Shown one piece after another: positions 6,625-8,756 of a stretch of 64,000 nt of DNA; positions within the stretch are counted from its first letter, which is position 1, and every line of letters begins with the position of its first letter. A program made the position numbers and the translations under genes. Source of the DNA: Novosphingobium kunmingense (GTDB taxonomy: Bacteria; Pseudomonadota; Alphaproteobacteria; Sphingomonadales; Sphingomonadaceae); contig NZ_PHUF01000002.1 of NCBI RefSeq assembly GCF_002813245.1, forward strand, positions 868,001 to 932,000, given 5' to 3'. Under the pieces are notes generated by a model. It had not been told where the DNA came from. It ran no database searches and saw only the letters and a list, made by a program, of their open reading frames with translations.

Positions 6625-7407
6625 TCAGGCTTCGGTCGCGGCTTCTTCGGCCGGAGCGGCAGCCAGTTCTTCGACCGGCGCTTCTTCCATTGCGCCGATG
6701 TCGGCGCCCGAATCGACCACGCCTTCGCGGTGACCCTTGGTGGCTGCAGCCGCAACGGCTTCGCAGTACAGGCGCACGGCGCGGCTGGCATCGTCGTTGG
6801 CCGGGATCGGGAACGCGATGCCATCGGGCGAAACGTTCGAATCGAGGATCGCGACGACCGGGATGCCAAGTACGTTGGCTTCCTTGATCGCCAGTTCTTC
6901 CTTGTTGGCGTCGATCACGAACATCACGTCCGGAATGCCGCCCATGTCGCGGATACCGCCAAGCGAGAGCTCGAGCTTGTCGCGTTCACGCGTAAGGTTG
7001 AGCACTTCCTTCTTGGTCAGACCCGCCGTATCACCGGCCAGCTGCTCTTCCAGCGCCTTCATGCGCTTGATCGACTGGCTGATGGTCTTCCAGTTGGTCA
7101 GCATGCCGCCCAACCAGCGGTGGTTGACGAAGTGCTGGCCGCACGAGCGGGCCGCCTGGGCGATCGGTTCCTGGGCCTGGCGCTTGGTGCCGACGAACAG
7201 CACCTTGCCGCCGGCGCGGACCGTGGCGTCGACGAAGTCGAGCGCGCGGGCGAACAGCGGAACGGTCTGCGACAGGTCGAGGATGTGGATTCCGTTGCGG
7301 GCGCCGAAGATGTACGGCTTCATCCGCGGGTTCCAGCGGTGGGTCTGGTGGCCGAAGTGCGCGCCGGCCTCGATCAATTGCTGCATGGAGACGGTAGGAG
7401 CCGCCAT
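6625..7407 (-). CDS. rpsB: 30S ribosomal protein S2
   Basis: The 260-residue protein carries the S2 signatures [20 protein letters not shown] near the N-terminus, [15 protein letters not shown] in the middle and [15 protein letters not shown] later. The C-terminal 30 residues are a Glu/Ala-rich tail common in alphaproteobacteria. The ATG at 7407 follows GGAAGGAAATGAACT, a good ribosome binding site. It is the first gene of the cluster that runs to bamA, and its leader contains a strong predicted RNA structure (7434-7490). Confidence 0.97.
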
Positions 7408-7548: not shown

Positions 7549-7589
7549 CGCCCTTAGCCCCCAGCGGCGAAAAAATGAAGCAAAAAAAG
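7549..7589 (-). promoter_or_regulatory. Candidate rpsB promoter region
   Basis: On the minus strand T-rich runs are followed by GGGGCTAAGGGCG (7561-7549), whose GCTAAG could be the -10 hexamer. The same 13-mer occurs in front of ahcY at 27627-27639. The -35 element is not clear. Confidence 0.3.
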
Positions 7590-7630
7590 CGCACCACCCC
7601 GGATGCGCGGCCGTCACGGCAAAAACCTGC

Positions 7631-7659
7631 TTGACAACATCGGAACAAAAAGAGAACAA
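7631..7659 (+). promoter_or_regulatory. Candidate SOS promoter with LexA box
   Basis: TTGACA (7631-7636) is followed 17 bases later by GAACAA (7654-7659). Overlapping spacer and -10 is GAAC-AAAAAGA-GAAC (7643-7657), an exact match to the alphaproteobacterial LexA operator GAAC-N7-GAAC. Bound LexA would cover the promoter. The downstream plus-strand gene starts at 7769. Confidence 0.6.
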
Positions 7660-7702
7660 CGCCGCAATGGAGCCGTTAGGGAACCGTTAACCTTTTCCCG
7701 GG

Positions 7703-7711
7703 TTATCCACA
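7703..7711 (+). promoter_or_regulatory. Perfect DnaA box
   Basis: TTATCCACA matches the strict DnaA consensus. It is a single box between the LexA-type promoter and the start of the small membrane gene. One box does not make an origin, but it could give DnaA-linked control of the neighbouring gene. Confidence 0.45.
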
Positions 7712-7768
7712 AGGTATGAACAGTCTGTCCCCACGGTTCCGGACAGGCGCGCGGTGAAGGACGAGACT

Positions 7769-8020
7769 ATGTTGACGCTCGCGATTGCCACTTTCTTTGC
7801 CGTAGCCGGGGCCGGTTCGCTGGCCATTATCGCGGGCGCGCTGCGTGCGGCTGCGCCCAAGGTTGCGCTTCTCCGGCGCAACCTCGCGGAGTGCAGCGAT
7901 ACGCTGACCGTTTCGGCACGGCTGTTCGAAACCGTGACCTCGTTTGACGATGGCAAGATCGTCCGCCTGCCGGTCAGGGCGCGACTGGTCCATCAACCGG
8001 TTCTGCGCGACGCCGCCTGA
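7769..8020 (+). CDS. Small single-span membrane protein behind a LexA box, function unknown
   Basis: An 83-residue protein I do not recognise. Residues 1-25 form one hydrophobic segment (LTLAIATFFAVAGAGSLAII), followed by a short basic patch (LLRR) and a mixed polar tail with a single Cys. The ATG at 7769 is preferred over the GTG at 7754 because AAGGA sits 7 bases upstream. Its 3-prime end overlaps the end of pssA on the other strand by 47 bases. With the LexA box at 7643-7657 it is a plausible DNA-damage-induced membrane protein; Caulobacter uses small SOS membrane proteins (SidA) and the SOS-independent DidA to block division. No homology to either is claimed. Confidence 0.7.
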   Translation: MLTLAIATFFAVAGAGSLAIIAGALRAAAPKVALLRRNLAECSDTLTVSARLFETVTSFDDGKIVRLPVRARLVHQPVLRDAA

Positions 8021-8756
8021 CACGCGCATACTGCATAATGCCGATCGGCAGGATCGCCAGGTAAACCGCGCAGATCCCGATCAGCGTCCACCAGGGTTCG
8101 GTCAGGGCAGCCGCTCCCGCCACGATACCCGCCAACAGGATGACTTCCATGCGCAGGTTGCGCCGCGGACGCATCCGCCCCCAGCTGAGCGTCGGCAAGC
8201 TGGAAATCGTCAGCAAGGCAATGATCACCAGCCAGGCCCCGACGACCGGCGGCTCGCGCAGGATCGTTTCCTGTGGGAAGGTGAAGCTGAGGTACATGGG
8301 CAGAAATGCAAGTCCTGCCCCCACCGGAGCCGGCACGCCAGTCAGGAAACCTGCCATTTTACGCGGCTCGTCCGGCAGGTCGATACGGGCGTTGAAGCGG
8401 GCCAGCCGCAGCGCCATGCTGACGGCAAAGGCCAGCGCCGCGAACCAGCCGATGCGCGGCACGTCCTGCAAGGACCACATGAACAGGACGAGCGCCGGAG
8501 CGACCCCGAACGACACGTTGTCGGCCAGGCTGTCGAGCTCGGCCCCGAACCGCGATTGCGCCTTGAGCAGGCGGGCGATCCGGCCGTCGATCCCGTCGAG
8601 CAGGCCGGCGAGGATGATGGCGCCGACCGCCTTCTCGAATTCGCCGGTGATGGCAAAGCGGATCCCGGTCAGCCCCGCGCAGAGCGCCGCCGCGGTAATC
8701 GCATTGGGCACCATCGCCCGCAAGGTCAGCCCGCCCGGCAAACGCCGTGGCGTCAT
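7974..8756 (-). CDS. pssA: CDP-diacylglycerol--serine O-phosphatidyltransferase
   Basis: Makes phosphatidylserine from CDP-diacylglycerol and serine in the inner membrane, the precursor that the adjacent psd turns into phosphatidylethanolamine. The 260-residue multi-span protein has the CDP-alcohol phosphotransferase signature with all its Asp residues ([14 protein letters not shown] then [10 protein letters not shown]). The start overlaps the psd stop as ATGA, so the two enzymes are translationally coupled. The C-terminus overlaps the convergent small gene by 47 bases. Confidence 0.95.

Follow-up and report, generated by a model that had tools for sequence, protein, structure and literature searches.

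A conserved LexA operator precedes a fast-changing small membrane protein gene beside pssA in Novosphingobium and its family: a candidate DNA-damage brake on cell division

Introduction

Is the small gene that lies between rpsB and pssA in Novosphingobium kunmingense controlled by the SOS response and, if so, what might its product do when DNA is damaged? The gene lies in the stretch of 64,000 nucleotides analysed here (the window), for which the original prediction had proposed an exact LexA operator, overlapping a promoter, ahead of an unfamiliar membrane protein. No report of the small gene was found among the literature matches listed, and it is not named in the rows examined of a Sphingopyxis SOS table (PMC6472365). 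For the DNA-damage checkpoint of this large family of environmental bacteria, the locus supplies a concrete candidate that can be tested.

Results

Layout of the locus

The features discussed below are as follows (positions in the window).

6625 to 7407, minus strand: rpsB (Pfam PF00318), the neighbour on the other side
7631 to 7636, plus strand: -35 element TTGACA, from the sequence, with TTGAC conserved in relatives
7643 to 7657, plus strand: LexA operator GAAC-N7-GAAC, GAACAAAAAGAGAAC, from a pattern scan and conservation
7703 to 7711, plus strand: putative DnaA box TTATCCACA in the 5' leader, from a pattern scan and conservation
7756 to 7761, plus strand: presumed Shine-Dalgarno-like GAAGGA, read from the sequence
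7769 to 8020, plus strand: small ORF of 83 amino acids with an N-terminal transmembrane helix and a basic tail, from prediction and dN/dS on relatives
7772 to 7891, plus strand: codons 2-41, one continuous helix predicted by AlphaFold2, hydrophobic at about residues 4-25
7974 to 8020, both genes: tail-to-tail overlap of the ORF and pssA, 47 nt, from the coordinates
7974 to 8756, minus strand: pssA (CDP-alcohol phosphatidyltransferase, Pfam PF01066), the usual neighbour

The ORF starts with the ATG at 7769 and has 83 codons, its stop ending at 8020. An alternative in-frame start, GTG at 7754, would give 88 amino acids; we prefer the ATG because the ATG of the relatives falls here (both start-calling scripts gave ATG a bonus) and because GAAGGA lies upstream of it. 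The leader from the box to the start codon measures 111 bases in the window and 110 on average in 84 same-genus regions. In the window, psd comes after pssA. The small ORF overlaps pssA convergently in each of 83 same-genus regions, by a median of 53 nt, and across the family the gene keeps its position at the 3' end of pssA.

On the minus strand, a terminator-like hairpin with a T run (7589-7608) reads towards rpsB just before the LexA promoter, and could end a psd-pssA transcript after antisense passage across the small gene. A conserved antisense pssA terminator was considered and rejected: it occurs in 4 of 84 regions, the window among them, against 0-1 in ten shuffles, and is thus real in few.

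The operator against its background

Our pattern scan confirmed the exact box GAACAAAAAGAGAAC on the plus strand at 7643-7657. By window statistics alone it is no better than chance, with three GAAC-N7-GAAC matches found for 1.82 expected and at least three in 27 of 100 shuffles. The whole genome (3.5 Mb) holds 120 matches against 67 for a reversed control pattern, so that about half of the genomic matches are background. We inspected the loci of 30 of these 120 sites, allowing either orientation of the box and measuring distances to the first possible start codon of each frame. A box stands 12 bp ahead of uvrA and 71 bp ahead of recA; for a uvrD/pcrA helicase gene the distance is 4 bp, and for a repair radical-SAM gene 2 bp. 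The majority of the 30 adjoin no recognised SOS gene. The genome also has lexA; about 60 bp ahead of the stretch that was matched lies a box, on the opposite strand. Taken together, the boxes at these four genes and lexA identify the motif as the SOS operator of this genome. One further gene beside a box (L020) looked imuA-like by eye; no family matched it and it was left unused.

Conservation within the genus

Direct protein search finds the small protein in 3 of 61 genomes, our own included, because the protein changes fast (mean column identity 24% over 67 sequences). Such a search being misleading, we traced the gene by its position, that is, by its neighbour genes. Within the genus, 91 of 99 genomes were matched and 90 pieces taken (without G089); after leaving out one whose orientation was not set (L068) and five without pssA (L038, L044, L048, L056, L084), 84 remained, the window's own included. 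All 84 regions carry an ORF with an N-terminal hydrophobic helix upstream of rpsB with adjoining pssA; 83 of these ORFs were picked by a script blind to the box, and that of L095 by eye, with its start set by hand.

The original prediction named orthologs with no LexA box upstream as a refuting result; the opposite was found, both here and family-wide (see below). Within the 220 bp ahead of the start codon, 83 of 84 same-genus regions contain an exact box, the exception (L104) having one mismatch, and the opposite strand has a box in 1 of 84. A second exact box follows 26-28 bp downstream in 21 of the 84, which suggests tighter repression in some lineages. Among 67 loci from named records, we left out two from unrelated bacteria (L224, L225) and three that end too early (L178, L200, L201); the box is present in all 62 with enough DNA, a set that partly overlaps the 84. 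By PssA, the nearest of the named records are Novosphingobium, at 88% identity and below. The records include N. arvoryzae, N. taihuense, N. subterraneum and N. hassiacum, and also members of Qipengyuania, Erythrobacter, Altererythrobacter and Pacificimonas.

Conservation across the family and beyond

The family search matched 126 of 129 genomes; with our own set aside, we examined 109 of the other 125, taking from each about 1 kb next to the pssA end and covering 86 genera. An exact box on the gene's strand occurs anywhere in the piece in 104 of 109 regions (83 of 86 genera). Box and helix ORF lie within 220 bp of each other in 101 of 109 (80 genera); since the ORF script preferred ORFs with a box, the 104 and not the 101 is the independent test, and genome counts of this kind are to be read as non-independent events. 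In the same 109 pieces, the other strand gave 2 matches, the reversed pattern 5 and 1, and spacings altered by one base 8 and 3. A chance box was therefore rejected, and comparison of sequences across relatives settles that the site is genuine.

Exceptions are few. Three box-bearing pieces lack a called ORF: L251, where an ORF is present on reading, L261, and G169, whose box lies near the pssA end and is followed by no helix ORF. Two calls are doubtful, the ORF of G330 stopping short of the pssA end and that of G250 having 35 amino acids. The odd ORFs of G172 and G330, and some others, were left out of one protein set (A3). Among the five pieces without an exact box, G172 has a boxed copy elsewhere (L144), and G163, G157, G319 and L255 hold one-mismatch candidates.

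A profile built from 67 of 83 proteins matched 62 of 246 genomes of the order at E<=0.01, all of them in this family; some weak matches, lying in long frames, probably arose by chance. Among 29 new loci from this search, 26 have an exact box upstream of the match or near it, the others being L135, L139 and L143. Three loci (L140, L144, L152) have neither rpsB nor pssA in their 3-kb piece, two of them lying between an OsmC-like gene and adk/secY and one beside a lon-like gene (names by ORF reading). All three keep the box upstream of the ORF, evidence that the operator goes with the protein and that the target is neither rpsB nor pssA.

Searches outside the family are weak, the protein being short and variable. 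At class level 25 of 240 genomes matched at E<=0.05, 22 of them weakly and outside family f1. We took none of the matches outside f1 as members: a box of any kind was found at 2 of 17 inspected loci there, once within a match inside a 499-aa frame and once after the match. Among 22 pieces upstream of rpsB from the order's other families, none has the box, which says little because pssA is absent from all of these pieces.

The promoter

The promoter predicted to overlap the box stood in its -35 part, a TTGACA at 7631-7636, and not in its -10. Every one of the 84 same-genus regions has a TTGAC starting 9-12 bp ahead of the box; among wider-family cases, 96 of 101 have it within 20 bp of the box, 91 of these at 7-12 bp. 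From this placement, the box would fill the spacer between -35 and -10. No -10 consensus was seen, a sigma-70 scan gave 0 promoters at the locus, and with a 17-bp spacer the -10 position would hold GAACAA (7654-7659); "promoter" here thus means the conserved -35 element plus the box. The box's internal spacer is itself conserved and A-rich.

The small membrane protein

The 83-residue single-span protein announced at 7769 is matched by the ORF and by AlphaFold2, which gives a single helix at residues 2-41, followed by a tail to which no structure is assigned (mean pLDDT 81 overall and 94-98 over the first four ten-residue blocks). It is as unfamiliar as had been thought: it falls into no sequence family of Pfam, NCBIfam or the PDB, its few matches being weak and differing between members, and the AlphaFold model found no fold match in the PDB. 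No LysM domain was detected among 67 members at E<=0.1, and no SulA domain by Pfam or NCBIfam, the protein having an N-terminal helix instead.

The sequence is under purifying selection. Synonymous exceeded non-synonymous change per site in 50 of 50 pairs (60-99% identity), and median dN/dS was 0.21 in the 40 closest pairs; the last 20 codons were left out because of the pssA overlap. The C-terminal AAA was discarded as functional evidence, since the opposite-strand frame of pssA may dictate it. Across 220 distinct proteins, median length is 86 amino acids and mean net charge +6.7. The charge is more positive after the helix in 176, the reverse in 12 and equal in 32, and by the positive-inside rule the basic tail is therefore predicted to be cytoplasmic.

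A DnaA box in the leader

The original prediction overlooked a second element, TTATCCACA at 7703-7711, which we take to be the DnaA-box consensus. It is the window's only TTWTNCACA. Genome-wide the pattern shows no excess (26 against 35 for the reversed control), and TTATCCACA itself occurs four times. Same-genus leaders carry TTWTNCACA on the gene's strand in 64 of 84 (41 with TTATCCACA) and on the other strand in 0 of 84; mononucleotide shuffles of the 84 leaders have it in 0.16 leaders on average (maximum 3). On the plus strand, 76 of 84 leaders have a best match that agrees with TTATCCACA at 8 or 9 of 9 positions; on the minus strand none does. The third base is mostly A or T among leaders, and such A/T variation is typical of DnaA boxes. 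Many leaders have a weaker TNCCAC copy about 12 bp further on. No other exact LexA box in the genome is followed by TTWTNCACA at a distance of 33-63 bp.

In the wider family, 29 of 101 leaders have TTWTNCACA on the plus strand and 5 on the minus. The candidate DnaA box is thus conserved within the genus and not universal. As TTWTNCACA it is absent from 20 of the 84 leaders in the genus and from 72 of the 101 in the wider family, so it is inessential to the gene's role. Where it occurs, the pair of sites suggests double control of the small gene by LexA and DnaA. Being one-stranded, the element could also act at the RNA level. A structured leader RNA was rejected for the window, whose leader is not unusually folded (z -0.33).

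As to the other three copies of TTATCCACA in the genome, one lies about 40 bp before ccrM (L154, 1467-1475, other strand), hinting that DnaA may also control this cell-cycle methylase gene; another lies inside an ORF and the last between ORFs.

Discussion

Based on these comparisons, there is good sequence support for LexA-mediated SOS control of the gene for this small single-span membrane protein. A fast-changing gene has thereby been traced through 83 of 86 genera by its operator and its pssA neighbour. As a family-wide SOS-controlled small inner-membrane protein, it resembles the division inhibitors SidA and DidA, and YneA, ChiZ and SosA. Sections of PMC4211646 describe SidA and DidA as small membrane proteins that inhibit division after DNA damage in Caulobacter, and sections of PMC13396833 describe YneA, ChiZ and SosA as damage-induced membrane division inhibitors; by both, these proteins act late, on FtsW, FtsI or FtsN. 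By this analogy the gene may be a DNA-damage brake on cell division like these five, a proposal whose chances we regard as evenly balanced.

From the sequences we infer LexA binding, induction, topology, division target and DnaA action along the following lines. LexA would occupy the box between the -35 element and the transcription start and repress the gene. Upon DNA damage, RecA-triggered cleavage of LexA would free the promoter, and the product would be a small inner-membrane protein with an N-terminal helix and its basic tail in the cytoplasm. Through its helix the protein most likely contacts one of the divisome's membrane proteins (FtsW, FtsI or FtsN), and septation would be delayed until repair is done. 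In Novosphingobium, DnaA at the leader box probably adds a second transcriptional brake. Against a division brake speak the predicted cytoplasmic position of the tail, where YneA has an extracellular LysM part, and the lack of a fold or family match and of a -10 consensus.

Other explanations were weighed against the same data. It is unlikely that the product acts in the manner of TisB or DinQ, as a membrane-active peptide that SOS induces and that would lower membrane potential and ATP and promote dormancy without binding the divisome. Single-helix SOS peptides are known, such as DinQ in the part of PMC3567139 devoted to it, and the long leader (mean 110 bases in 84 regions) would suit one; against this, the protein is longer (median 86 amino acids in 220 proteins), purifying selection acts on the ORF minus its last 20 codons, and the window's leader is not unusually structured. 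We likewise find improbable some other SOS role at the membrane, in which the basic tail tethers DNA or a repair enzyme or the protein serves as a protease adaptor: a mean net charge of +6.7 in 220 proteins would fit a tether, whereas there is no recognised motif, and the whole protein is poorly conserved (mean column identity 24%).

The usual neighbourhood of pssA raises the idea of an envelope or lipid adjustment, in which the protein, or its transcript running antisense into pssA, lowers phosphatidylserine synthesis during SOS. The convergent overlap in every one of the 83 same-genus regions and the family-wide adjacency to pssA favour it, yet L140, L144 and L152 keep box and protein without pssA in the 3-kb piece, so that antisense to pssA is not the constant function; we judge this adjustment quite improbable. 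That a chance box happens to precede an unrelated gene is hardly credible: the window taken by itself would be compatible with it (3 matches for 1.82 expected), but 104 of 109 regions against 1-8 of 109 in five controls contradict it.

The division brake, as our preferred reading, could be extended to a checkpoint gated twice in Novosphingobium and some relatives, with LexA reporting damage and DnaA reporting initiation capacity. We consider this extension doubtful. If it were true, the double-gated division block would peak under DNA damage combined with low DnaA, and initiation control and SOS would meet at one effector. In any case, the leader DnaA box points to a possible connection of replication initiation with SOS that can be tested.

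How does the protein compare with known systems? SidA of Caulobacter, LexA-controlled and acting on FtsW, is likewise an SOS-controlled small inner-membrane protein of an alphaproteobacterium; by description the two are set apart, SidA having 29 residues in the passages on it in PMC4211646 and the protein here 83 with a long basic tail. DidA, controlled by DriD and interacting with FtsN, is of similar size (71 residues, one helix) and is SOS-independent according to the same passages, in contrast to the conserved LexA box here. YneA, SosA and ChiZ are likewise small membrane proteins and SOS- or damage-induced division inhibitors in the relevant sections of PMC13396833, where AF3 models, not of high confidence according to their authors, put ChiZ, SosA and SidA on FtsW. 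YneA has a LysM domain outside the cell in those sections, whereas our protein is without LysM and its tail is predicted to lie inside. TisB and DinQ are SOS-induced inner-membrane peptides, DinQ being LexA-controlled with one transmembrane helix; the portion of PMC3567139 on DinQ gives it 27 residues and an antisense RNA, against 83 amino acids here, and the size criterion for type I toxins such as these (<50 amino acids) is exceeded by the median of 86. Double control would have precedent in E. coli uvrB, recN and dinJ, which take both repressors: they likewise have LexA and DnaA boxes in one SOS promoter, with additive repression in the sections of PMC6015884 that treat them. Those genes have other functions; here the product is a membrane protein, and the putative DnaA box lies downstream of the operator.
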